From an uncultured Lachnospiraceae bacterium (lineage in GTDB: Bacteria; Bacillota; Clostridia; Lachnospirales; Lachnospiraceae): DNA of 64,000 bases. The position numbers and the translations under genes are program-made. Location: contig CALWLI010000018.1 in the NCBI GenBank assembly GCA_944381485.1, positions 43,924 through 107,923 of the forward strand, written 5' to 3'. The notes below the pieces were generated by a model. That model made no database searches and had not been told where the DNA came from. It worked only from the letters and a program-made list of their open reading frames with translations. This document shows, in pieces, positions 37,971 to 50,533 of this stretch (its first letter is position 1; the number at the start of each line of letters is the position of its first letter).

Positions 37971-38019
37971 GTAGTTTTTCTTTACACCTCTCCCCTTCAC
38001 GCTTATATAATCTCTTTAT

Positions 38020-38391
38020 TTATTCTTTCTTCAGTCGTTCCGATATCTCTTCGCACAGTATATCAAGCTTTTCAAACAATTCTCTTTTTATATCCTCGTC
38101 AAATTTTTCATAATGTATGCCACAGGATACCGTTACAACGCATCCTCTCTCTGAAGAGAGTTTTTTTGCACAGTATTCGGCCACAAGGCCGTCTCTATGT
38201 CCTGCTACATTGATTACGGATACAGTTGAACTCATCTTGTCTCTGTCACTTATTCCGGGATGCGGAACAGCCAGAGCTGTACAGCCTATATGCGGTCTGT
38301 CTCCTCCGAAAATACATACTGAGGCATCTTCTCCGGCCATTGTTAACGTCAAACTCAAATTAAGTTTATCAACCGAAAAATCAAAATCCAT
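38020..38391 (-). CDS. lpdD: LpdD-like prenylated-flavin chaperone
   Basis: A 123-residue protein with the LpdD pattern: GGDRPHIGCTALAVP followed by SSTVSVINVAGHRDG. LpdD was found with gallate decarboxylase genes in lactobacilli, and the family is now described as helping prenyl-FMN loading or function of UbiD enzymes. The ATG overlaps the end of ubiX by 11 bases (GGAATGGATTTTGA) and has GGAG upstream. Its presence points to a hydroxyarylic-acid-type decarboxylase rather than the ubiquinone or menaquinone pathway enzyme. Confidence 0.78.
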   Translation of the reverse strand: MDFDFSVDKLNLSLTLTMAGEDASVCIFGGDRPHIGCTALAVPHPGISDRDKMSSTVSVINVAGHRDGLVAEYCAKKLSSERGCVVTVSCGIHYEKFDEDIKRELFEKLDILCEEISERLKKE

Positions 38392-38956
38392 TCCTTTCTC
38401 CCGTCCAAATCCTATAGTCCTTGTCATTAATCCCTATGTATCTTAATATCTTTCCAACGATCTGTTCTTCCATATCTTCAATGCTCAGCGGCCTGTGGTA
38501 GTATGTCATTACAGGAGGTAGGATCACAGCTCCCATTTCCGCCAAAGAGAGCATGTTCCTCAAATGTATGCTGCTGAGAGGGGTCTCTCTCACAGCAAGG
38601 ATCAGAGGTCTTTTTTCTTTAAGCATCACATCAGCCGCTCTGAGAAGCAGATTTTCGGAGTATCCGCAGCTGATACCTGCAAGTGTCTTCATACTGCATG
38701 GAAGGACTACCATGGAGTCGGCATCAAAGCTTCCGCTGGCAATGTCAGCCCAAATCATATCAATAGAATAATTCACATCAGCCAAGGCTTTTATCTTGTC
38801 AATCTCAATACCGGTTTCCGTCTCTGCTGTGATCTCGGCTCCTCTTGTCATTATCAGGAAGGTTTTTATATCAGGAATATCCCTAAGTTTTTTCAGCAAG
38901 GCAACAGCAATAGGTATTCCTGATGCCCCGCTGACTCCTACTATAATTTTTTTCAT
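38381..38956 (-). CDS. ubiX: Flavin prenyltransferase UbiX
   Basis: UbiX makes prenylated FMN, the cofactor of UbiD. The 191-residue product begins MKKIIVGVSGASGIPIA and has the family motifs VLPCSMKTLAGI and RETPLSSIHLRNM. It is 11 bases downstream of ubiD and overlaps lpdD, so cofactor synthesis and chaperone are coupled to the decarboxylase. Confidence 0.96.
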   Translation of the reverse strand: MKKIIVGVSGASGIPIAVALLKKLRDIPDIKTFLIMTRGAEITAETETGIEIDKIKALADVNYSIDMIWADIASGSFDADSMVVLPCSMKTLAGISCGYSENLLLRAADVMLKEKRPLILAVRETPLSSIHLRNMLSLAEMGAVILPPVMTYYHRPLSIEDMEEQIVGKILRYIGINDKDYRIWTGERNGF

Positions 38957-38967
38957 TATAAAATCAC

Positions 38968-40452
38968 CTACTCCTCATAATCGGGAAGCCACTTTTTAGG
39001 ATCTGTCTCCATAAAAGGTGCTCTCTTGAACCTATCCTTCATATCAAAGGGTATGGTGCAGTCAAATATGGTTTTGCAGGATATTCCCCTGTCTCTTATA
39101 CTGTCTGAATACTGAGGATTAGATGAGGGATCCAGAGGATGGCACCTTACTCCCGGAATCGTTATTATGTCTTTGTCTCCTTGGAACCTTGTGTTCATGG
39201 CCCACAATACATCATTAGAGTCAAAGATGTCCACGTCATCATCCACCAGTATCACATGCTTTAACTCAGGAAATGCGGAAAAAGCCAACAGGGCTGCCTG
39301 GCGCTGACGGCCTTCATCTGTGTGGTCTTTCTTCCTGAATTGCAATACAGCCATGTATTTTCCTCCGCCAGACCTGTGAGCATATACTCCTGTAAGTCTT
39401 CCAGGCATGGCCTTCTCTATCATTCCGTAAATACTTGCCTCTGTAGGAAGCCCCGCCATATTCACATGCTCCTCCGAAGGTCCTATGCAAGTCTGCATTA
39501 TAGGATTTTTTCTGCAGGTCACAGCCTTTACCTTTATAAGTCTGCATTCACTGCTTGCCGGACCGTTATATCCCGGAAATTCAGGCATGGCATAGCCTGT
39601 ATGGCTGTTTTTATCCTCAACCACCATCACCCCGGGCTGTATCTCTCCCTCGATCACATACTCGGCATTGGCAATGGCATTTTCTTTTATTGTAAGGCAG
39701 GGTGTAAGCTCCACAGCCTTTCCCCTGAGGGCTCCCGCAATTGAAAGCTCATTGAATCCCAGAGGTGTTGTGGGAGGTTCAAAGCAGGAAAGTATTTCTA
39801 TTGCAGGATCCACTCCGATAGAGATAGAGATCGGGAGAGGTATGCCAAGCTCTGAAGCCCTGTCCGCCATTGCACCTATATGTCTTGATCCCGGCATTAA
39901 GAAGATAGAGAGTTCATCTCTGCCTTGAACGCACATTCTGTGAATGGTTATATCACTTACCCCTGTGTCCGGGTGGGTTGCATAGCACATGCCCATAGTT
40001 ATAAAAGGTCCTGCGTCTATGGGAGTGTTAGTAGGCGCGGGAACAAGCTTTCTCAGGTCAAAATCAGGATCCGCGGCTAAATGTATCACCTCCCTGCATT
40101 TGGGGCTCTCGCTGACGACAACAGGAGCTATAGGGTTATTTACGCAGTTATATATTACCTTGGGAAGATCAAGCTGACTGCACCCGAAAAAGGCTGCCAC
40201 TCGCTTGCGGCTTCCCAAAAGACCGATAAGAACACGTGCATCGGGAAATCCCTTCACATTATTGAATATCATTGCGGGTCCATTCACCCGGGTTGGACGT
40301 CGCACAGTACCTCCCGCTCCCACATATCTGTATACCCCTGCCAGCTCTGCCATGGGATCCACCGCTTCATCCGTTTCCACCAATTCATTTTTCATTTCTT
40401 TGAGAAGCTGAAGCGCTGAGCGAAGATCTGTTACCTCTTTATTTGCTGTCAT
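38968..40452 (-). CDS. ubiD: UbiD family prenyl-FMN-dependent (de)carboxylase, hydroxyarylic acid type
   Basis: A 494-residue UbiD enzyme, which reversibly decarboxylates aromatic or alpha,beta-unsaturated acids using prenylated FMN. The central segment VVEDKNSHTGYAMPEFPGYN carries the acidic active-site residues in the form typical of the LpdC/ShdC group (non-oxidative hydroxyarylic acid decarboxylases) rather than classic E. coli UbiD. ISIGVDPAIEI and GSRHIG lie upstream in the fold. I chose the ATG 11 bases after AAGGAG; an upstream extension would be coded by a terminator hairpin. Substrate not determinable from sequence. Confidence 0.92.
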   Translation of the reverse strand: MTANKEVTDLRSALQLLKEMKNELVETDEAVDPMAELAGVYRYVGAGGTVRRPTRVNGPAMIFNNVKGFPDARVLIGLLGSRKRVAAFFGCSQLDLPKVIYNCVNNPIAPVVVSESPKCREVIHLAADPDFDLRKLVPAPTNTPIDAGPFITMGMCYATHPDTGVSDITIHRMCVQGRDELSIFLMPGSRHIGAMADRASELGIPLPISISIGVDPAIEILSCFEPPTTPLGFNELSIAGALRGKAVELTPCLTIKENAIANAEYVIEGEIQPGVMVVEDKNSHTGYAMPEFPGYNGPASSECRLIKVKAVTCRKNPIMQTCIGPSEEHVNMAGLPTEASIYGMIEKAMPGRLTGVYAHRSGGGKYMAVLQFRKKDHTDEGRQRQAALLAFSAFPELKHVILVDDDVDIFDSNDVLWAMNTRFQGDKDIITIPGVRCHPLDPSSNPQYSDSIRDRGISCKTIFDCTIPFDMKDRFKRAPFMETDPKKWLPDYEE

Positions 40453-40471
40453 ATTCTGCAGTTCTCCTTTC

Positions 40472-40518
40472 AAGAAAAAACCGGCAGCCATGAAAAAACA
40501 GGAGGCTCACGGCTGCCG
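40472..40518 (-). terminator. Terminator or attenuator between FAD oxidoreductase A and ubiD
   Basis: CGGCAGCC and GGCTGCCG pair perfectly around a 21-base loop; on the minus strand GTTTTTTCTT follows. It would reduce ubiD-ubiX-lpdD transcription relative to the first two genes, unless it is controlled. Confidence 0.75.
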
Positions 40519-40530
40519 ATTTCTTATAAA

Positions 40531-41997
40531 CTATTTAACGGGGCACTCAAAAAGTATTGCGCCCTGCTTCAAAAGCATATCCTGAAGCTCGCTTACATCC
40601 TTCTCCAGCTCTCTGGGTGTTATTCCCTTCTTTATACAAAGCCCTGCGGCTGTTCCTGCAGCCTGGCCTGTAACCATGGTCTGATGCAGGTATCTCAAGT
40701 ATGCGGGCCTGTCTGTGGATACACACTTTCCTGCGGCAAGAAGATTGTCTATCTTCTTGGGTACAAGACATCTGTAGGGTATGTCATAGGATCCTCCGTC
40801 TTTGGGGAAAGCTATATCTGTCTTATAGGTGACACAGGCGTTCAAAGTATCCATTGATGAAACATGGTAAGCTCCGGCCTTAAATGAACTCTTACCTATG
40901 GTGTCTTTAAACTGCTTGCATTCCTCCACATCATCTCTTGTCAGAACATAGTCACCTACGATCCTGGGCCCTTCTCTGAGCCTAAGCTCCGTACATACCT
41001 TTGTTATGTAGGCGTGCTCAAAGCCGGGAACATAGTTCTTGAAGAATCTCCATGCTATCATATTCTGCTTGCGGCACTCTATCATACATCTTGTCAGATC
41101 CCATGCATCTGTGGGAAGCGCATGGTCAACCTGAGATGAATGCTGGAAGTGAGCCTGAATATGTCCGCCCTCCTTGGGTGTGAGGAAGAATCCCGCTCCT
41201 GAATAAGGATGCCAGTCTCCATTTTTAAAAGCCATGTCTCTCAGCTCATAAAATCCCATTATTTCGCCAAGCTCCTTAATATCATGGCACTTTGCGTACA
41301 TGTTCATTACGTCTTCCTGAGTATTTGCATCCTTGTAAGGGAATATGAGCTGACGATATGAAAACTGCTCAGGATGCTCCCTTATATATGTGAGGAGCTT
41401 GTCCCAATCGACTCCGTCAACCGTGAAGGCCAAAGTATGGGGCTGTATCTCATCTCTGCTTACACAGGCCATCTCACAGCCTGCATCCGCCGAAACATAG
41501 CCCTCTCCGGTACAGTCTATAACTATCTTTCCCTTTATGTTGTTTCTTCCGTTGGCGTTCTCAACAGTGATTCCTGTTACTGTGTCTTCCTCCTTTGTTA
41601 CGTCGACTACAAGTGTATCAAGAAGAAGATCAACTCCCTCCTCGTCCATCATCTCAAACATGAGCATTGTCCACCAATCGGGATCGATATAGGAAAAGGT
41701 GTATCCTGCCTTCTCTCTCACCTTATACCTCAAATGGGGAAGTGCATGGCCTGATTTGAAGAGTCTCTGATAAGTCTCCTCAACGATTCCACCTATATCT
41801 CTTTTTCCCTGGGGATTGAAGAGTCTTGCATAGGCGAAGCCCGGAGGGCCCGAAAGGCTCATCTGTCCGCCTATGGTACCTGTTCTCTCAACAAGGAGAG
41901 TCTTTGCTCCCGCCCTTGCGGAAGCTATGGCTGCAGCTGCACCTGAGGTGCCGGCGCCACATACTATAACATCATACAATGTATCGTAACTACCCAT
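40531..41997 (-). CDS. FAD-dependent oxidoreductase, copy A
   Basis: A 488-residue flavoprotein of the FAD_oxidored family. The N-terminal Rossmann motif VCGAGTSGAAAAIASARAGA binds FAD, followed by GGQMSLSGPPGF; the C-terminal FAD-binding segment is LLAAGKCVSTDRPAYL. The substrate is unknown; neighbouring ubiD suggests an aromatic or unsaturated acid. The ATG has GGAGG seven bases upstream; an 11-codon upstream extension overlaps the previous gene and is rejected. By hand alignment it is about 95% identical to copy B in residues 1-204 and in the last 78 residues, but much less alike near residues 205-305 and 370-397. Confidence 0.88.
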   Translation of the reverse strand: MGSYDTLYDVIVCGAGTSGAAAAIASARAGAKTLLVERTGTIGGQMSLSGPPGFAYARLFNPQGKRDIGGIVEETYQRLFKSGHALPHLRYKVREKAGYTFSYIDPDWWTMLMFEMMDEEGVDLLLDTLVVDVTKEEDTVTGITVENANGRNNIKGKIVIDCTGEGYVSADAGCEMACVSRDEIQPHTLAFTVDGVDWDKLLTYIREHPEQFSYRQLIFPYKDANTQEDVMNMYAKCHDIKELGEIMGFYELRDMAFKNGDWHPYSGAGFFLTPKEGGHIQAHFQHSSQVDHALPTDAWDLTRCMIECRKQNMIAWRFFKNYVPGFEHAYITKVCTELRLREGPRIVGDYVLTRDDVEECKQFKDTIGKSSFKAGAYHVSSMDTLNACVTYKTDIAFPKDGGSYDIPYRCLVPKKIDNLLAAGKCVSTDRPAYLRYLHQTMVTGQAAGTAAGLCIKKGITPRELEKDVSELQDMLLKQGAILFECPVK

Positions 41998-42009
41998 AAG
42001 TTTACCTCC
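40531..42009 (-). repeat. Inverted repeat arm 1 (FAD oxidoreductase gene plus RBS)
   Basis: The homologous tract runs from GGAGGTAAACTT before the ATG to the stop codon. In the last ~270 bases I count four differences from arm 2. Flanking DNA is unrelated beyond these limits. Confidence 0.85.
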
Positions 42010-42010
42010 T

Positions 42011-43723
42011 CTATTTTCTTCTGAAATCATTTATGCTCTTTGCCACTGTTCCGTCAGGAAGTGTGATCGCCTCAACACATCCCTCACTGTGGAGTGCCCA
42101 AGGAAGGATTATTCCATCATGTCCTCCCCTTCCTCCTACTGTAACCACCTCAACATCCTTTGGAGTTCTTGTTACAGGGAGCGGATGTCTGTTTGCCCAC
42201 TCTTTCGGACGTACAGGAACCAAGCCTCTTCCGTTTACCATGGCGTTGTCGTGGTAAACATAGGTATGTATATGCTCCTGAATCATTTCCTTTGTATATC
42301 CGTCCTTTTTAAGCATCATGGCATGATCCGGCGTCAAGCACATTACAAGAGGTCCCGGCATATAAGCGTTATTTGATCCCAAAGTCGAGCAACAGTCTGT
42401 CAAAGTATCCAACAGGTCATGTCCGTTAAGGCTCAGGAAGTCTATTACATCATGTATAGGCTCAGCCTTTAAAAGATAAACTGTGGTTGTCTCAGAATCA
42501 AATCTGTCCTCATTAATCATGTTCCACTGGGCAAGTGAAGGCTCCTCCGCAAAGCAGTAAGTAAACTCGGCCTGTGATGCGATACAGTCAAGATCGCATA
42601 CTCCCGGAACACTTCTAAGCACATTCATAATAACAAGATTTATAGCTCTTCCTATGGTAGCATTCTCCGGCCATCCGGGCCCCATACAGCCCTGTTTTCC
42701 TGAAATACCTATCTCCTGAGCAATAGGCCCTGAAACTATGCAAAGATTTCCACCGGGGTGTGAAGTTGTTACCGACTGGTTGAAATTATAAAGGGGGCTG
42801 TTCAGGGCCTTAAATGCTGCTACAAGTATGGGCATGGCATGAGGCTTACATCCCGCCATAACTGCGGCTATTGCAACATCCCTTACGGTTATCTCTCTTC
42901 CTGAAGGTCCGGAAGGATCCACAAGCTTCAGATCCTCAGGCCAAGGACAAAACTCAAGCATAGCCTCATATCTTCTTTTTGTAGGGGGAATTATGGGAAG
43001 GCCGTCACATATATGCTCAGCATTAAAGAAGTCCATAACCTCCTCCATGTAAGCTCCCGGCTCTGCCGCTTTATCTTCATTGAATTCAGGGGTAAAGGGC
43101 AGAAATCCGTCCTTTGCGGGAGCAATCTTATCCATCTTAAAATCTATATGGGCTAGTTTTTTCAGTTCTTCTCCATTGGAAGTAAGGGCTCCAAGTATAT
43201 AGTCCCACTTCTTATCCACTTCGGCTGCAACCTCTTCAACAGTGGAAGCCTGCATAATGTCTACCGAGCACAGGCAGAGCTCTCCGGCCCTGTATACTCC
43301 GACACCCTCTGTTATGGCTGTTCCCGGAGGTGCAGTCATATATACAGCAGGGATTCCCAGCTTTTCGAGAGCTATGGTGAGGACAGTCGTTGAAGATGAT
43401 GTTCCCATATCTCCGAATGCAACTATTGCCGCCACAGGCTCTTCCTTGGCCAGCATTTTTGCATAATCCATGAGTTTGTCGGCATTTTTTCCACGTACAG
43501 TCTCTGTATACTCCACCCACTTGCTGTCGTCACAGCCGATTTCTCTCAAATGCTCTTTAATACGATCGAAAACAGTATAATAATTGCAGAATCCCAGCTT
43601 TGTATTATTGTAAAATAAGATCTTTCCTTTTTTCAGCTCATCGAGGGTAGGCCTTTTTGCAAGCTGAAGCATAGGCCTTTCCTGATAGCCTCTGGGATCA
43701 AGCATTTTGTTAACGTTACTCAT
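42011..43723 (-). CDS. Two-domain protein: UGSC-like N-terminal domain plus uncharacterised C-terminal domain
   Basis: A 570-residue cytoplasmic protein without a known function. Residues 1-200 resemble the UGSC family of (seleno)proteins: MLDPRGY start, a KGKILFYNNTK strand, then AFGDMGTSSSTT where that family has GD-U/C-GSC. The redox Sec/Cys is Met here and the second Cys is Ser. Residues 215-570 match an uncharacterised domain recognisable by DGLPIIPPTKRRYEAML, MAGCKPHAMP and ENATIGRAINL. AAGGAGG lies eight bases before the ATG, and a promoter precedes it. It heads the operon with FAD oxidoreductase A and ubiD-ubiX-lpdD, so a role in the same pathway is likely. Confidence 0.65.
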   Translation of the reverse strand: MSNVNKMLDPRGYQERPMLQLAKRPTLDELKKGKILFYNNTKLGFCNYYTVFDRIKEHLREIGCDDSKWVEYTETVRGKNADKLMDYAKMLAKEEPVAAIVAFGDMGTSSSTTVLTIALEKLGIPAVYMTAPPGTAITEGVGVYRAGELCLCSVDIMQASTVEEVAAEVDKKWDYILGALTSNGEELKKLAHIDFKMDKIAPAKDGFLPFTPEFNEDKAAEPGAYMEEVMDFFNAEHICDGLPIIPPTKRRYEAMLEFCPWPEDLKLVDPSGPSGREITVRDVAIAAVMAGCKPHAMPILVAAFKALNSPLYNFNQSVTTSHPGGNLCIVSGPIAQEIGISGKQGCMGPGWPENATIGRAINLVIMNVLRSVPGVCDLDCIASQAEFTYCFAEEPSLAQWNMINEDRFDSETTTVYLLKAEPIHDVIDFLSLNGHDLLDTLTDCCSTLGSNNAYMPGPLVMCLTPDHAMMLKKDGYTKEMIQEHIHTYVYHDNAMVNGRGLVPVRPKEWANRHPLPVTRTPKDVEVVTVGGRGGHDGIILPWALHSEGCVEAITLPDGTVAKSINDFRRK

Positions 43724-44040
43724 GGTCGTATCCTCCTTATACTTTTTACAGCGAAACGGTTTTACAATTTGATATTATATTTGTCGATACCCGAATGCAA
43801 TTCACTATAGAAACACATTATGAATAATCGGAATAACAAAATATGTTTGCCATACGGTTTAAAAGAGTTTTTATGTAAATTTTGTAATTTTATACTGTAT
43901 TATGTAGTTTTTATTTCCTTTTGTTATTCCATTTTGTAATATGCAAACGATTAAAAAGAATTAATTATCCTAAGCTTATTTAGTATAATTTAGTCAAAGA
44001 ACAGCGATACGGTGCACATATTAAACGGGAGGTAATAGAA
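43724..44040. promoter_or_regulatory. Divergent promoter region with symmetric inverted operators
   Basis: Leftward promoter: TTGCAT (43795-43800), 17 bases, TAATAT (43772-43777). Rightward: TTAATT (43961-43966), 17 bases, TATAAT (43984-43989). GGAATAACAAAA at 43830-43841 and its exact inverted copy at 43919-43930 are each centred about 71 bases upstream of the predicted start of the promoter they face, the usual recognition-site position for LysR activators. A second inverted pair, GTTTGC(C)ATA (43845-43854) and TATGCAAAC (43940-43948), lies nearby. GGGAGG precedes the binding protein gene. No ORF is seen here. Confidence 0.6.
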
Positions 44041-45120
44041 ATGTATAAGAAGAAACGCTTTAAAGTGACAGCATTGCTTCTTGCGGGAGCTATGATGCTT
44101 TCAGCCTGCAGCAGCTCCACCTCAGGAACTGATGCACAATCCGGCGGTGAGCAGGCATCAGGTATAGATCATATAAATATTGCCACTCAGTCCGTCGGAA
44201 CATCTTATTACACTATGGGAACAGGAATAGCCAAGATCATAACCGAGAATACACCTATACAGGCTACTATCCTTCCCTACGCAGGGCCTGACGCCTGGAT
44301 GCCGGAATTCAACGACGGCACTATAGGCCTTGAAGTAATTTCATCCATGGACCTCTATTGGGCTTATACAGGAACAGTTAACTATACCCAGCCCTCGCCC
44401 GACACCAGGCTGTTACTCAGCGGTAACTGGTCCGAGCACTGTACACTTACAGTCAGAGATAATTCCGATATTTATAAAATCGAGGATCTCAGAGGAAAGA
44501 GGATAGGTTACGAGTACGGCGGAAACAAGCTCACTGTGAATCTTATCGATGCAGCTCTCGCCTCTGTGGGTATGACCATAGACGATTGTGTGGCTGTGCC
44601 CCTTGCCGATCTCTCCTCAGCTCAGAGAGCTCTTCAGGAGAACAGAGTAGACTGCATCTTCACAGGTTCCACTACGACACCTGCATCAGTGGAGTTGGAT
44701 CAGACTATAGGAATAAGGACTCTTGCTCTCGGCGATCTCACACCTGCAGATCTTGAGAACGGTGTGCCTGAGGATGTTCAGGCTGTATTGGATGAATATG
44801 TTCCCGGCGCGGAGCCCAGAGTTTGCGAGCCCAAGGGAACTTTGAAGGAGGCTACTGTCCTCACTACTTATCCCATACAGATGGGAGTCTCAGCAAAAAT
44901 CAGTGAAGATGACGTATACACAATAATGAAGGCCATATACGAAAATTATGAAATATTAGCAGATGTACATGCCTGGGGTGCTGAGTGGATACCTGAAAAT
45001 TACGTTCAAGAAAACTTCTTGGTTCCCTACCATGACGGAGCTGTAAAATTCTACAAGGAGGTAGGCCTTTGGACTGACGAGGCTGAGGCCAGACAGCAGG
45101 AGCTCCTCGCCCAACAGTAG
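44041..45120 (+). CDS. TAXI family TRAP transporter solute-binding lipoprotein
   Basis: A 359-residue extracytoplasmic binding protein. The lipobox LSAC (Cys23) predicts lipid anchoring after LspA cleavage. The mature part starts with the TAXI signature region IATQSVGTSYYTMGTGIAKII and has the two-lobe solute-binding pattern (DLRGKRIGYEYGG, LSSAQRALQENRVDC). TAXI-TRAP systems use ion gradients to import organic acids and related compounds at high affinity. The permease gene follows directly. Substrate unknown; the ubiD link suggests a carboxylate. Confidence 0.92.
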   Translation: MYKKKRFKVTALLLAGAMMLSACSSSTSGTDAQSGGEQASGIDHINIATQSVGTSYYTMGTGIAKIITENTPIQATILPYAGPDAWMPEFNDGTIGLEVISSMDLYWAYTGTVNYTQPSPDTRLLLSGNWSEHCTLTVRDNSDIYKIEDLRGKRIGYEYGGNKLTVNLIDAALASVGMTIDDCVAVPLADLSSAQRALQENRVDCIFTGSTTTPASVELDQTIGIRTLALGDLTPADLENGVPEDVQAVLDEYVPGAEPRVCEPKGTLKEATVLTTYPIQMGVSAKISEDDVYTIMKAIYENYEILADVHAWGAEWIPENYVQENFLVPYHDGAVKFYKEVGLWTDEAEARQQELLAQQ

Positions 45121-45144
45121 TTTTGACTTATGGAGGGGTATAGT

Positions 45145-47037
45145 ATGAATGAATTATTTGAAAAAATCAAAAAGATAGTGTTCCCTATATATGCCATAAT
45201 CGGAATCGTTACAATAATAGATGTGCCTGCCTACTTTAAGATCTCCCTTTATACCGAGCAGTATCTGGGTATATATATGACTATGATACTTTCGGGAACC
45301 TATCTGTGTAACCCTTGGAAAAAAGGAGCGGATTTCAATATAGTAGATCTGATACTGGCTATACTCTGTATCCCTACAGGCCTGTATCTGACCATAAATT
45401 ATCCCTGGATCGCCCTCAACATGGGTGTAATGACAGTTTGGAGGACCATATGGGGAATAATCGCCATACTCCTTATCCTGGAAGGACTGCGTCGCTCCAT
45501 GGGCTGGTCCCTTGTTATAGTGTGTACGGTTTTTCTTCTGTATGCCAAATTCGGGTCAAATCTTCCGGGAATTCTTCACTGTAGAGAATTCACCCTCGAG
45601 AAGCTTGTGAGCTATATATATGTAGATCCCAACAGCCTGCTCTACATGCTCAGCTTCGGTTGTACCATAGGTGTCGCTTTCATAGTTTTCGGACAGGTTC
45701 TCCTCAACTATGGAGGCGGTAAGGCTTTTATAAACTTTGCACTGCTCTTCTGCGGTAGATCTCAGGGAGGAAGCGCAAAGACAGCAGTTGTATCGTCAAG
45801 CCTTGTAGGTACAATAACAGGCGCTCCCATGTCAAACGTTCTTTTGACAGGAAGCGTAACCATACCTATGATGAAGGAGGCGGGATACCCTCCCGCAACA
45901 GCAGGAGCCGTTGAGGCAGTTGCCTCCTCAGGAGGACAAATCATGCCTCCTGTAATGGGTGTAGCGGCATTTATTATAGCAGAGACTCTGGGAGTTCCCT
46001 ACTCGGAGGTGGCTCTTGCAGCCCTTATCCCTGCGCTCCTCTACTATTTTGCCACATTTGTTCAGGTCCATATGGATGCAGGCAAGCTTCAGCTGAAGCT
46101 GGTTCCCAAGGACCAACTTCCCACGCCTAAGTATGCCTGGGTAAACGGTTGGTTTATAATCCCTCCAATCGCCGTGCTTCTTATACTCATGTTCAACGTG
46201 GGATTGCCTGCAGCCTTGTCAGCTATCATAGCCAGCGGTGTCGCTCTGCCTTTCGTTCTTGCCAAGAAAGAAAACAGAGAGACCTATTTTCAGCAGCTTA
46301 AGACTACCCTCTACGAGACCGGCGAGATGATGGTCGGCATAGGAATAGTTATGGCTATGGCGGGAATAGTAGTAGGATGTATAAACGCTACAGGCCTTGC
46401 CTTCAACTTAAGCCTTGCCCTTACAAGCCTTGGTGCAAATCATGTATTCCTGCTTCTTGTATGTGCGGCAGTCACATCCTTGATACTTGGAATGGGTATG
46501 CCTTCAGTGGCAGCCTACTCTCTTGTGGCTATACTGGTTGCGCCCTCACTTATACAGTTTGGAATACCTGCCATGGCAGCCCACCTGTTTGTATTCTACT
46601 TCTCGGTTATTTCAAATATAACCCCGCCTGTGGCTGTGTCCTGCTTTGCAGCAGCGCCCTTGGCGGGAGCAAATCCTACAAAGGTGGGATTTACAGCCTT
46701 CCGACTTGCCATAGCAGCCTACATAGTTCCTTTTGCCTTCTGCTTCACTCCGGAGCTGATAATGGAGGGAGAGCCTCTTGATATACTCATATGCTTCGTA
46801 TTCTGTCTGTACGCTATTTTCTCAATTTGCGTAGCTCTCTCAGGCTTCTGGCAGCTTACTGTTCCAATGGTAAAAAGGGTTCTCCTATGTGCTTTCTCTG
46901 TTGTTATACTCTGGCCTACAAGCATACTGATAAATCTTGCAGGGGCAGTCGTACTTACAGTGCTACTGCTTCCCAATATCAAGGCTTCGATTGAGTACAA
47001 CATGAACAGAAAAAAGTCTGTGAAAGCCGCTGAATGA
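45145..47037 (+). CDS. TRAP transporter fused 4TM/12TM permease
   Basis: A 630-residue membrane protein that joins the small DctQ-like and large DctM-like subunits, the form used by TAXI-TRAP systems. The conserved large-subunit segments are visible: GRSQGGSAKTAVVSSSLVG, VEAVASSGGQIMPPVMG and GMGMPSVAAYSLVA. I chose the ATG six bases after GGAGGGG; an ATG five codons earlier lies on that site. It forms one operon with the binding protein and FAD oxidoreductase B. Confidence 0.93.
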   Translation: MNELFEKIKKIVFPIYAIIGIVTIIDVPAYFKISLYTEQYLGIYMTMILSGTYLCNPWKKGADFNIVDLILAILCIPTGLYLTINYPWIALNMGVMTVWRTIWGIIAILLILEGLRRSMGWSLVIVCTVFLLYAKFGSNLPGILHCREFTLEKLVSYIYVDPNSLLYMLSFGCTIGVAFIVFGQVLLNYGGGKAFINFALLFCGRSQGGSAKTAVVSSSLVGTITGAPMSNVLLTGSVTIPMMKEAGYPPATAGAVEAVASSGGQIMPPVMGVAAFIIAETLGVPYSEVALAALIPALLYYFATFVQVHMDAGKLQLKLVPKDQLPTPKYAWVNGWFIIPPIAVLLILMFNVGLPAALSAIIASGVALPFVLAKKENRETYFQQLKTTLYETGEMMVGIGIVMAMAGIVVGCINATGLAFNLSLALTSLGANHVFLLLVCAAVTSLILGMGMPSVAAYSLVAILVAPSLIQFGIPAMAAHLFVFYFSVISNITPPVAVSCFAAAPLAGANPTKVGFTAFRLAIAAYIVPFAFCFTPELIMEGEPLDILICFVFCLYAIFSICVALSGFWQLTVPMVKRVLLCAFSVVILWPTSILINLAGAVVLTVLLLPNIKASIEYNMNRKKSVKAAE

Positions 47038-47065
47038 TTTTATTATGGACAGGCTTTAATTTATC

Positions 47066-48538
47066 GGAGGTAAACTTATGGGTAGTTACGATACATTGTA
47101 CGATGTCATAGTATGTGGTGCCGGCACCTCAGGTGCCGCCGCTGCCATAGCTTCCGCAAGGGCGGGAGCAAAGACTCTCCTTGTTGAGAGAACAGGTACC
47201 ATAGGCGGACAGATGAATCTCTCAGGCCCTCCGGGCTTCGCCTATGCAAGACTCTTCAATCCCCAGGGAAAAAGAGATGTGGGAGGCATTGTTGAAGAGA
47301 CCTATCAGAGACTCTTCAAATCAGGCCATGCTCTCCCCCACCTCAGGTATCCCTTCAGGGAAAAGGCCGGCTTTACTTTCTCTTATATAGATCCTGAATG
47401 GTGGACAATACTAATGTTTGAAATGATGGATGAGGAGGGAGTGGATCTCCTTCTTGATACACTTGTAGTCGACGTCACAAAGGAGGGAGACACAGTAACA
47501 GGAATCACTGTAGAGAACGCCAACGGAAGAAACAGCATAAAGGGAAAGATAGTTATAGACTGTACCGGAGAGGGCTATGTTTCGGCGGATGCAGGCTGTG
47601 AGATGGCCTGTGTAAGCAGAGATGAGATACAGCCTCATACTTTGGCCTTTACAGTTGACGGAGTCGATTGGGACAAGCTCCTCACATATGTGAGAGAGCA
47701 CCCTGATCAGATACAGTATAAACAGCTGATGAATCCCTATACCGACAACACACATGAAGCTGTAATGGATGTGTACAGAAAATGTCATGACATCAGAGAA
47801 CTTGGCGAGGTCATGGGCTTTTATGAGCTGAGAGACATGGCTATGAAAAATGGTGACTGGCACCCTTATTCAGGTGTAGGATTTTTCATAATACCAAGAG
47901 AAGACGGACACATTCAAGCTCACTTTCAGCACTCATCTCAGTGGGATCACTCTCTCCCCTCAGATGCATGGGATCTGACAAGATGTATGATAGAGTGCCG
48001 CAAGCAAAATCTGATAGCATGGAGATTCTTCAAGAACTATGTTCCCGGCTTTGAGCACGCCTACATAACAAAGGTATGTACAGAGCTTAGGCTCAGAGAA
48101 GGTCCCAGGATCGTAGGTGACTATGTTCTTACACAGGAGGATGTATCCGAATGCAGACAGTTTAAAGACACCATTGGTAAGAGTTCATTTAAGGCAGGCG
48201 GATATCATGTGACGAATGTCAATACTCTTAATGTCAACCAGGATGACCCCCGCATGGCTTGGCCCAAAGACGGAGGATCCTATGACATACCCTACAGATG
48301 TCTTGTACCCAAGAAGATAGACAATCTTCTTGCCGCAGGAAAGTGTGTATCCACAGACAGGCCCGCATACTTAAGATACCTGCATCAGACCATGGTTACA
48401 GGCCAGGCTGCAGGAACAGCCGCAGGGCTTTGTATAAAGAAGGGAATAACACCCAGAGAGCTGGAGAAGGATGTAAGCGAGCTTCAGGATATGCTTTTGG
48501 AGCAGGGCGCAATACTTTTTGAGTGCCCCATTAAATAA
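47066..48538 (+). repeat. Inverted repeat arm 2 (FAD oxidoreductase gene plus RBS)
   Basis: Opposite orientation to arm 1, about 5 kb away. The same GGAGGTAAACTT-ATG boundary and stop-codon boundary mark the ends. The interior is a mosaic of near-identical and diverged tracts. Confidence 0.85.
47078..48538 (+). CDS. FAD-dependent oxidoreductase, copy B
   Basis: A 486-residue paralogue of copy A with the same FAD-binding motifs. It differs mostly in two internal tracts (about residues 205-305 and 370-395; for example HSSQWDHSLP in place of HSSQVDHALP, and NQDDPRMAWP in place of CVTYKTDIAFP), as expected if the substrate-facing region has diverged while the cofactor parts are kept alike by gene conversion. 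It is the third gene of the TRAP operon, 40 bases after the permease, and ends at a terminator. Confidence 0.88.
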   Translation: MGSYDTLYDVIVCGAGTSGAAAAIASARAGAKTLLVERTGTIGGQMNLSGPPGFAYARLFNPQGKRDVGGIVEETYQRLFKSGHALPHLRYPFREKAGFTFSYIDPEWWTILMFEMMDEEGVDLLLDTLVVDVTKEGDTVTGITVENANGRNSIKGKIVIDCTGEGYVSADAGCEMACVSRDEIQPHTLAFTVDGVDWDKLLTYVREHPDQIQYKQLMNPYTDNTHEAVMDVYRKCHDIRELGEVMGFYELRDMAMKNGDWHPYSGVGFFIIPREDGHIQAHFQHSSQWDHSLPSDAWDLTRCMIECRKQNLIAWRFFKNYVPGFEHAYITKVCTELRLREGPRIVGDYVLTQEDVSECRQFKDTIGKSSFKAGGYHVTNVNTLNVNQDDPRMAWPKDGGSYDIPYRCLVPKKIDNLLAAGKCVSTDRPAYLRYLHQTMVTGQAAGTAAGLCIKKGITPRELEKDVSELQDMLLEQGAILFECPIK

Positions 48539-48567
48539 AAAGAATTATCAGAAAAGTTAAAAAGTTG

Positions 48568-48597
48568 AAGCGGGACTTTCATCCCGCTTTTGCTTTT
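48568..48597 (+). terminator. Rho-independent terminator after FAD oxidoreductase B
   Basis: AAGCGGGA and TCCCGCTT pair around a six-base loop, followed by TTGCTTTTATT. It lies between convergent genes and may serve both strands. Confidence 0.8.
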
Positions 48598-48608
48598 ATT
48601 GAATTTAT

Positions 48609-49520
48609 TTAAAGTCTGAAGCATGTTCTATCCGGAAATTTCTCTTTAAGATATTTAGCTAAAAGCATTCCCTTTTTGCTGCCCTCGTTTTTACTCAGCA
48701 GAATGCAGAGAGTCAAAACGATCTCTTCTTTTATGGGAACCGCAACAATGCTCTCATCTATAACAATGGATCTTGCCACTTTTTCCGCCACCAGTGATAC
48801 TCTCCCCTTCTCAACAATAAAAGGGCGCACAGAGTCAATAGTCATGTTAAAAAGCTGTACAGGTGCTGAGGGACAATATTTTTTTATGGCTTCAGTGTAG
48901 TATGAAGCTAATATGGGATCATTGTTTACCTGAATGAAGGTCTGATTCTTTATGGACTCCAGTGATATCAGAGAGCTCTTGGCTATTCTGTTAAGCTTTG
49001 ACATCAGAAGCAAGGGCTTATCATCTATCAGAGGTATCACTTTGAGATCCTCCAAATCATCCTTTAACGGAAACTTCAAAACCGCTATGCCTATGTCTAT
49101 GGAGCCATTCCTCAGCTGGTTTATCACATCTGCCGTACGTATCTCTCTCATGTCGATCTGATATTTGGGATTCTTTTTTTCAAAGTTAAATACGGCATTT
49201 GTTATTCCATATGCGTTGAGTCCATGCCCTCCACCCAGAGACAGCCTGTGTTCCTCGTCAAAGGCTGCCGTACGGCATATTTCATTTATACTGTTGAAAT
49301 TTTCAACTATCTCCATGGCATAGGGCAAAAGCTTTTCTCCGGCTCCTGAAAGACGCGTCTTGCCGGAGTTTCTGAGAAAAAGCTTGACCTCCAATTCCTT
49401 CTCAAGAGAGATCATGGACTTTGAAAGGGATGACTGGGATATATAAAGTTCCTCAGCAGCTGCAGTAAATCCACCGTACTGCTGGATCGCGACAAAATAT
49501 GAAAGCTGCTGCAGGGTCAT
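48609..49520 (-). CDS. LysR family transcriptional regulator 1
   Basis: A 303-residue LysR-type regulator: an N-terminal winged helix-turn-helix (about residues 1-60; FTAAAEELYISQSSLSKSM) and a two-lobed effector-binding domain. It is divergent from a second LysR gene and convergent with the TRAP-FAD operon, so it likely senses a pathway compound and controls the divergent promoter at 43.7-44.0 kb. The ligand is unknown. Confidence 0.93.
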   Translation of the reverse strand: MTLQQLSYFVAIQQYGGFTAAAEELYISQSSLSKSMISLEKELEVKLFLRNSGKTRLSGAGEKLLPYAMEIVENFNSINEICRTAAFDEEHRLSLGGGHGLNAYGITNAVFNFEKKNPKYQIDMREIRTADVINQLRNGSIDIGIAVLKFPLKDDLEDLKVIPLIDDKPLLLMSKLNRIAKSSLISLESIKNQTFIQVNNDPILASYYTEAIKKYCPSAPVQLFNMTIDSVRPFIVEKGRVSLVAEKVARSIVIDESIVAVPIKEEIVLTLCILLSKNEGSKKGMLLAKYLKEKFPDRTCFRL

Positions 49521-49618
49521 CTGAAATTCCTCCCGAAAACTTTAATTTCCGCTTTATTATATCACAATTTAATATTAAACTGAATATAACACTATTGTTA
49601 CATGGGGGGTAATGTTTT
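49521..49618. promoter_or_regulatory. Shared promoter region of the two LysR genes
   Basis: The perfect palindrome TTTAATATTAAA (49568-49579) lies midway between the two divergent starts. A TATAAT box serves the leftward gene and TATAAC could serve the rightward one. The palindrome could be a common autoregulatory site. Confidence 0.45.
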
Positions 49619-50533
49619 ATGACAATTCAAGAGCTCCGCTGCCTTACGGAAGTTGCCAAAGAAAGCAGCATAACAAAGGCCTCAAAAAGGCTTAATATAA
49701 CTCAGTCATTTGTATCAAAGCAAATAAGTATGCTTGAGAAGGAGCTTAATGTCCAGCTGTTTCACAGGAATACACATATGGTGACCCCTTCCGATGAGTG
49801 TAAATCTGTCCTTCCCTATGCCGAAAAAATATTAGAGCTGTTCGAGCAAATGGAAAATGTCAACAATGAATGTAAAAAGTCTCTCGATCAGAAGCTCCTT
49901 ACCATAAGCTCCATACCTGTTTTAAATCACTATGATATTGTCAGCAGCATTATTGATTTTGAAAAAAAGCATCCTGATATATCTTTTCAGCTTTCCGAGG
50001 GAGCTGTTTCCGATGTGCTGACCTCAGTAGAGCATCAGGATGCGGATATAGGAATTGTCCGAACAGATAATCTTAAGGATAATGTGTATGATATTTTCCC
50101 GTTTTTGTCTGACAGATTTGTCGTGCTTATGAATGAGTCCCATCCCCTATCATCATGCAGAAGCATAGATGTAGGCATGCTAAAAAATGATAAATTCTTA
50201 CTTATGAACGACCAGTATTATATAGCCTACTACAAAAAAATACTGAGTAATATAGACGCATCCGTAAATGTAACCTATACGAGGGCCCGTCTGTCCACTA
50301 TAAAGACCTTTATAAAAAACAATCTCTACGTAACTATTATTCCCAGCAGGATGGCTTTCTTTCCTAAATTTCAAGGCCTTAAGGCAGTGCCTATTGAAGA
50401 CTGTAAACCTATACATCTGGTAATGATAACAAAAAAGGGCATCGAAATGCCCTATATTTGCCGAGAGTTTATTGATTGGATCTTGAATCGCTACAAGGAT
50501 TTTTCCGCTCTTGATTCCCACCTGCAACTGTAA
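49619..50533 (+). CDS. LysR family transcriptional regulator 2
   Basis: A 304-residue LysR-type regulator with helix-turn-helix SSITKASKRLNITQSFVSKQ and a C-terminal effector domain. It is only distantly similar to LysR regulator 1, so this is not a recent duplication. A GGGGGG stretch precedes the start. Its last 65 bases overlap, tail to tail, the end of the clc gene on the other strand. It is the right border of the island. Confidence 0.92.
   Translation: MTIQELRCLTEVAKESSITKASKRLNITQSFVSKQISMLEKELNVQLFHRNTHMVTPSDECKSVLPYAEKILELFEQMENVNNECKKSLDQKLLTISSIPVLNHYDIVSSIIDFEKKHPDISFQLSEGAVSDVLTSVEHQDADIGIVRTDNLKDNVYDIFPFLSDRFVVLMNESHPLSSCRSIDVGMLKNDKFLLMNDQYYIAYYKKILSNIDASVNVTYTRARLSTIKTFIKNNLYVTIIPSRMAFFPKFQGLKAVPIEDCKPIHLVMITKKGIEMPYICREFIDWILNRYKDFSALDSHLQL

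Follow-up and report, generated by a model that had tools for sequence, protein, structure and literature searches.

We analysed a window of 64,000 nucleotides from an uncultured Lachnospiraceae bacterium (GenBank assembly GCA_944381485.1, contig CALWLI010000018.1, positions 43,924 to 107,923 of the forward strand). It contains an acquired island of ten genes at 37989..50521, encoding a protein of 570 amino acids (the 570-aa protein), two flavin adenine dinucleotide (FAD) oxidoreductases of family PF12831 (FAD1 and FAD2), a TAXI-TRAP importer, a UbiD decarboxylase with UbiX and an LpdD-type protein, and two LysR-type regulators. The conserved unit of this system is the 570-aa protein together with a PF12831 FAD oxidoreductase, a near-constant pairing. 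Judged from its sequence, the 570-aa protein is a relative of the UGSC/"Unknown_1" selenoprotein fusions, and the selenocysteine (Sec)/Cys dyad of these fusions is absent across its clade.

A contig scan with the 570-aa protein retrieved 46 encoding stretches, which represent 43 distinct loci with 70-87% identity. A PF12831 FAD gene is present in 36 of the 43 loci and directly adjacent in 31. In the seven loci without it, the contig ends at the 570-aa gene (six) or 3.2 kb beyond it (one); L028, where a FAD-type gene upstream is only distantly related (25%), was scored as having no FAD partner. A FAD gene also adjoins the more distant relative (60% identical) on a Sporomusa termitida plasmid. 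The gene set proposed by the first-pass annotation is conserved as regards this pair but not as a whole, UbiD being found in 6 and the TAXI gene in 2 of the 43 loci (flanks examined). FAD1 (open reading frame (ORF) 40531..42030, minus strand, 301.6 bits against a cut-off of 27) and FAD2 (47078..48538, plus strand, 304.3 bits against 27) share 88.5% protein identity and are the sole strong PF12831 matches in the window genome (E ~1e-90; next 4.7e-13). The start of FAD1 is more likely at the 12th codon (41997), as in FAD2; FAD1 and the 570-aa gene would then no longer overlap. Searching the PDB with the PF12831 proteins at E<=1e-5 gave the N-terminal part of 3oz2 as the sole match (E 1.1e-7), and among the 25 NCBIfam matches listed none comes near its cut-off. 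In Blautia sp. An249 the FAD gene (L009:11727-13222) is split over two overlapping frames, by a frameshift or an assembly error.

The two partners differ in conservation. In the 465 pairs formed by the window and 30 loci, median identity is 0.79 for the 570-aa protein and 0.57 for the best-matching FAD oxidoreductases. In 445 of these pairs the FAD oxidoreductases are the less conserved partner, and the rank correlation is close to nil (rho 0.10), which suggests that the 570-aa protein is the constant half, with a shared chemical step, and that the FAD oxidoreductases are the substrate-specific, variable half. Mean column identity of the 570-aa protein reaches 83% in a 30-row alignment (window plus 29 of the 43 loci). 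According to record names, its carriers include Lachnospiraceae, Oscillospiraceae, Family XIII, Treponema, Chloroflexi and Sporomusa, several being metagenome-assembled genomes. Some genomes, e.g. Lactonifactor longoviformis, contain at least two loci. When 398 genomes of the phylum were searched with a 570-aa profile, 22 gave a match, the window genome among them.

In the 570-aa protein (42011..43723, minus strand) the N domain is of UGSC type, and the C domain belongs to no Pfam family. The two-domain, UGSC-like description given by the first-pass annotation is borne out by PF24696 (28.9 bits against the Pfam cut-off of 25, a weak match) and by the layout of the selenoprotein fusions. It needs correction with respect to the NCBIfam UGSC equivalog NF041046, whose cut-off is missed (24.0 bits against 125), and to the UGSC motif itself, which is absent. 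No U/C-x-x-C redox motif is found in the 570-aa protein; the D-U-G-S-C (Asp-Sec-Gly-Ser-Cys) of the relatives aligns with D-M-G-T-S (Asp-Met-Gly-Thr-Ser) in the window clade. DMGTS is present in 41 of the 43 related gene copies, while two copies are fragmentary and lack the motif region; it is also present in the relatives from Sporomusa termitida and Vibrio europaeus (46% identical). Concerning the kinship of both types, N-domain profiles of Met and non-Met rows match with 98% probability, with the Sec position opposite the window Met, and the C domains of Met-type and UGSC-fusion proteins have common invariants including G241, P243, P247, T248, M289, G291, P294 and P298; the C domain also has an invariant Cys. 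Searches of the PDB with the single sequence and with a 20-row profile gave one chance-level match each.

Most of the weaker profile matches proved to be genes in which a TGA lies in frame at the motif position. This TGA is present in 16 of 17 read-through frames listed, 13 of which read U-G-S/T-C and the others UGGC, UTAC and UIGC. The UGA-type genes are two-domain fusions, except for L091, where the domains lie in neighbouring genes; separate adjacent genes likewise encode the two domains on plasmids of Arthrobacter and Halalkalicoccus. Distant C-domain matches that looked like free-standing proteins are mostly the portion of a selenoprotein after the UGA. SelB above cut-off was found in 10 of 11 UGA-carrying genomes, the eleventh (G287) having a C-terminal selB fragment only, and in two of five Met-only genomes, one of them the window's. 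A third form of 660 amino acids, with a signal-like N terminus and a CGLC motif, occurs in three genomes (L092, L094, L098); each of these genes lies near a DsbD-type membrane gene, and none of the three genomes has selB above cut-off. Folding of 13 of the 16 UGA genes in a check for bacterial Sec insertion sequences gave several with a small stem-loop after the UGA, the lowest energy z-score being -1.82 and four being positive. Stem-loop folding is no independent proof of Sec, and the case for Sec rests on the aligned in-frame UGA together with selB. The dyad would have been lost in the 570-aa clade, rather than Sec gained elsewhere, a direction that we infer. At one further locus, L088, five UGSC/C-domain genes lie in a single stretch; three show both UGSC and an in-frame TGA, and selB is within ~1 kb.

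A UGSC/Unknown_1 fusion selenoprotein was reported in 2008 in the Global Ocean Sampling (GOS) selenoproteome paper (PMC2398784); its Unknown_1 would correspond to the C domain of the 570-aa protein. A 2022 review gives UGSC without function in the sections available (PMC9312934), and a 2026 review, likewise available in part, describes nearly all such selenoproteins, UGSC included, as largely uncharacterised in function (PMC13188914). That the 570-aa protein has no known function, as first noted, stands; the replacement of the UGSC dyad by Met and Ser and the selenoprotein-fusion layout had been overlooked.

Our leading proposal, which we put forward tentatively and with less than even confidence, is that the island came in by horizontal transfer, serves catabolism and is probably under LysR control. 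Its steps would be import, FAD-dependent dehydrogenation, lysis or elimination (570-aa protein) and decarboxylation of the AroY type. TAXI-TRAP would import a hydroxylated (cyclic or aryl-bearing) carboxylate, which FAD1 and/or FAD2 would dehydrogenate. The 570-aa protein would then convert the activated product by elimination or by lysis of a C-O or C-C bond; a non-redox step is proposed because the selenol/thiol centre of the relatives is absent. The product would be or become a catechol-type aromatic acid, e.g. protocatechuate, which UbiD would decarboxylate to a phenol. Import and decarboxylation follow from knowledge of the families; dehydrogenation and lysis are steps we infer. The 570-aa protein may instead participate in electron transfer.

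Concerning the last step, UbiD (38968..40491, minus strand; PF01977, PF20695 and PF20696 above their cut-offs) has AroY, a protocatechuate decarboxylase, as its best solved relative (646 bits; next type 220), with identity to 5o3m at 288 of 488 aligned positions (59%). Its E304 and K378 correspond (chain offset taken as 20) to Glu-289 and Lys-363, given as the acid-base residues of AroY in the accessible part of PMC6644310, and both are kept in all seven UbiDs of the system. UbiD scores below the VdcC cut-off of NF041204 (444.9 against 650 bits) and far below that of menaquinone-type TIGR03701 (141.1 against 495.9 bits). By pairwise alignment with AroY it is thus classed as an AroY-type catechol-acid decarboxylase and not as a menaquinone-type enzyme, in agreement with the hydroxyarylic type assigned at first pass. 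The adjoining genes encode the flavin prenyltransferase UbiX (38381..38956, minus strand; NF004685, 244.2 bits against 188) and the LpdD-type accessory protein (38020..38427, minus strand; PF21758 PAC_bac, 104.6 bits against 27). An LpdD-type gene is present in five of the six other UbiD loci; the TAXI gene is absent from all six.

UbiD lies outside the core, as an addition specific to one clade. This follows because the FAD oxidoreductases linked to UbiD fall in a single clade and because the genomes of L006 and L032 have no AroY-type UbiD (E<=1e-60). In a FAD tree of 60 rows, the eight UbiD-linked rows, window twins included, lie within one clade of 12 with support of 100/100. The remaining four rows of this clade are the twins of L006 and L032, and none of the 48 rows outside is UbiD-linked. 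On this tree the UbiD label requires 3 changes against a shuffled mean of 7.6, with none of 500 shuffles as low, a result to which near-copies contribute. Two of these 48 rows, read by eye as probable thioredoxin reductases (L089_007, L095_035), are not counted as PF12831 partners and were kept as long outgroup rows, and L084_029 was retained as PF12831-like. L006 and L032 possess TAXI-TRAP, twin FAD genes (87-89% identical) and the 570-aa gene. With these two genomes lacking an AroY-type UbiD and six other UbiD loci lacking TAXI, the importer-to-UbiD series assumed in the first-pass annotation is not one conserved system.

These data also bear on the main rival explanation, namely that the island joins two modules, UbiD-UbiX-LpdD acting on plant phenolic acids and TAXI-TRAP, twin FAD oxidoreductases and the 570-aa protein acting on an unrelated acid. 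The UbiD-less core of L006 and L032 fits this explanation, as does the finding of AroY-type UbiD in 8 of 26 genomes searched, two of which (via L009 and Lactonifactor) had been recognised as UbiD carriers before, while in the other six it lies outside the examined loci. Against it speak the confinement of all UbiD-linked FAD oxidoreductases to one clade and the run of 570-aa gene, FAD gene, UbiX and UbiD on the same strand in L007, L009, L016 and L036. We consider it somewhat unlikely.

The redox context of the non-Met relatives raises another explanation, reductive cleavage feeding glycine reductase (Grd), in which the 570-aa protein keeps a protein-B-like C-X cleavage and the FAD oxidoreductase takes the place of thioredoxin (Trx). 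Thiol-redox genes flank 11 of 22 non-Met loci (16 + 6), but only one of the 48 sequences (window plus 47 loci) of the Met clade, where the FAD partner is general; this contrast speaks for our leading proposal. The thiol-redox genes comprise Grd and Trx genes in L084 and L089, TrxB in L095, and MauE/DoxX or DsbD in L085, L086, L087, L092, L094, L097, L098 and L103; the six additional non-Met loci gave no Grd, Trx or Dsb match. Among the separate domain genes, trxB and trxA lie beside those of Arthrobacter, and trxB lies near a C-domain gene in Variovorax. A wider profile search covering the orders of G377 and G481 gave matches in 1 of 5 and 4 of 25 genomes, respectively. The reductive explanation gains from the Sec-type relatives, which stand alongside GrdA, Trx, GrdC and GrdB in L084 and L089 (in L089 also GrdE). 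It further gains from the sole Met-type locus with a thiol-redox set, Sporobacter termitidis L026, where GrdA, GrdB, GrdC, GrdE and TrxB lie on the opposite strand and the Grd genes end 9.9 kb after the 570-aa gene. The window genome itself contains selB, three full-length GrdB matches (G000:C18:18298-19332, G000:C25:18472-19512, G000:C7:10497-11543) and a GrdB fragment, and can, on the strength of these genes, probably make selenoproteins and use glycine reductase. Nevertheless, the explanation is improbable: Grd genes flank only this one of the 48 Met-type sequences, the nucleophilic Sec/Cys is missing, and the 570-aa protein matches PF24696 alone in Pfam at E<=0.01, with no match to the GRDB profile (PF07355); in profile comparison, the UGSC domain and GrdB reach 46% probability.

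Some observations on these loci are added here. The UGSC fusion selenoprotein genes of L084 (1860-18515) and L089 (1124-10088) lie inside glycine-reductase clusters with TRAP-type genes near, and both clusters are possible new Grd-type substrate systems. Sec-type L084 also has a PF12831-like gene. One GrdB gene of the window genome lies ~25 kb left of the window.

Neighbouring genes, i.e. flank genes within ~10 kb whose operon membership is unproven, give indications on the substrates. In the flanks of the 43 loci TRAP genes occur in 14 (TAXI type in 2) and ribose-type ABC genes in 15, so the transporter type varies among loci. Aconitase X is found in six Met-type loci (L026, L034, L040, L101, Sporomusa, Vibrio), aldehyde ferredoxin oxidoreductase (AFOR) in three of the 48 Met-type sequences, and dihydroxy-acid dehydratase in two of them. 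Iron-containing alcohol dehydrogenase (Fe-ADH), aldehyde dehydrogenase (ALDH) and URO-D-family proteins are also among the neighbours. The neighbours point to hydroxylated acids and alcohols. A corrinoid O-demethylase was considered for the URO-D neighbours and dropped, since no corrinoid protein was found among the representatives scanned; no further search was made. On the Sporomusa termitida plasmid pSPTER (L115) and the Vibrio europaeus plasmid pVEu (L116) the Met-type protein gene lies near aconitase X, the Vibrio copy beside an annotated enolase.

A quinate- or shikimate-type alicyclic acid might alternatively be aromatised by FAD-dependent oxidation and dehydration to protocatechuate and then to catechol. 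The AroY type of UbiD, the hydroxy-acid dehydratases around the core in other genomes and the origin of some carriers from plant-fed animals (horse faeces and sheep omasum according to record names; termite gut) would agree with this. The ten operon proteins, however, have no dehydroquinate or dehydroshikimate dehydratase match in Pfam or NCBIfam, and quinate or shikimate as substrate is a guess on general grounds; this alternative is distinctly improbable. That UbiD acts as a carboxylase in an assimilatory or biosynthetic island is scarcely credible: AroY enzymes have been explored for reversible (de)carboxylation (PMC6644310, accessible part), but the dedicated importer, the LysR regulators and the mostly catabolic-type neighbours speak against it, and none of the ten genes is biosynthetic by Pfam or NCBIfam.

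Several points weigh against our proposal of import, dehydrogenation, lysis and AroY-type decarboxylation. The lyase-like step is a guess from the neighbours and the missing redox dyad, and sequence searches of the PDB gave no relative for the C domain of the 570-aa protein. As L006 and L032 illustrate, UbiD need not share a route with the core. Half of the non-Met loci have no thiol-redox gene, and some of the query proteins were taken from tested loci, which match by construction. Regarding the core itself, the scan that gave the 43 loci favours close relatives, the 465 identity pairs are mutually dependent, and the Vibrio relative has no annotated FAD gene in 25.6 kb, although this gene table is possibly incomplete.

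With these reservations, we suggest, again tentatively and short of even confidence, a new two-component enzyme class, in which a former selenoprotein without selenium or thiol chemistry would be the constant half for diversifying FAD dehydrogenases. Many anaerobes would use it to open various plant-derived or hydroxylated acids, with the AroY-type step added for aromatic products. If the change from the Sec motif to Met/Ser and the change of redox neighbours are true, a selenoprotein family would have changed its chemistry beyond a Sec-to-Cys swap. The 570-aa protein is widespread and strongly conserved, yet has no function in the open-access PMC literature examined; identifying the substrate of a single operon would help to trace those of many more.

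The island is a single insertion of ~12.5 kb that is absent from the four congeners examined. Window DNA aligns (blastn) with the nearest congener G005 (L121; ffh 91% identical) up to 37988 and again from 50522, and at this site G005 has 37 bp between ylxM and a clc-type gene. In G002, G006 and G019 ylxM adjoins the clc-type gene as well, with zero island genes in the stretch examined. Because the alignment breaks at these positions and four congeners are without the island, it is one acquired island. The 570-aa gene occurs in 1 of 99 genomes searched, namely the window's own, the set including 24 other members of the genus; the island is horizontally acquired. Profile searches (Pfam, NCBIfam) detected no integrase or transposase among the ten island proteins. 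The interval given by the first-pass annotation coincides almost exactly with this one insertion, a coherent, transferable unit. Since this insertion holds the two sole strong PF12831 genes, the single UbiD match and the single UGSC match of the window genome, the grouping is beyond chance.

All ten ORFs were confirmed at their positions with the families as named (Pfam, NCBIfam), and the two operons of the initial description indeed diverge from a gap of 317 bp (43724..44040). Promoter-like sites in this gap number 3 as compared to a shuffled mean of 2.2, which is no excess. On the plus strand follow the TAXI-family TRAP solute-binding protein (44041..45120; TIGR02122, 139.9 bits against 84.35), the fused TRAP permease (45130..47037; TIGR02123, 537.2 bits against 320.65) and FAD2. 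The two LysR-type regulators (both PF00126 and PF03466) point away from each other, regulator 1 at 48609..49520 on the minus strand and regulator 2 at 49619..50533 on the plus strand, the 3' end of the latter overlapping the 3' end of the clc-type gene.

The twin FAD genes (40531-42030, 47078-48538) are inverted repeats flanking the 570-aa and TAXI-TRAP genes. Over residues ~161-480, window FAD1, on the 570-aa side, is nearer to the TRAP-side FAD oxidoreductase of L006 and FAD2 nearer to the other one; the first 160 residues are most alike between the twins within the window genome. The FAD tree places FAD2 alongside those FAD oxidoreductases of L006 and L032 that lie on the 570-aa side (100/99). 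Recombination between the twins that inverted the middle, with 5' conversion, would explain this pattern. The inversion is one event seen by comparison, with no evidence of phase switching.

In line with the first-pass annotation, searches of the open-access PMC literature on UGSC, Lactonifactor, glycine reductase, AroY/TRAP/gut, quinate, aconitase X and UbiD/gut gave neither a described pathway with this gene set nor a report of the 570-aa/FAD pair. With the UGSC/Unknown_1 fusion, the 570-aa protein has in common the two-domain layout, the UGSC N domain and the C-domain invariants; it differs by Met/Ser in place of Sec/Cys, by its FAD partner and by missing the NF041046 cut-off. AroY (PDB 5o3m, 5o3n, 5ny5) resembles the island UbiD in 59% identity, the catalytic Glu/Lys and the adjoining UbiX and LpdD-type genes, whereas the operon of the island also encodes FAD enzymes and the 570-aa protein, and its UbiD stays below the VdcC equivalog cut-off. 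Both island TAXI-TRAP subunits score above curated cut-offs as known transporters do, but this type occurs in only two of the 43 related loci. The island FAD oxidoreductases are full-length PF12831 matches above cut-off, but their PDB match is limited to the N-terminal part of 3oz2. The island is probably a catabolic island, a known kind, built on an uncharacterised enzyme pair.

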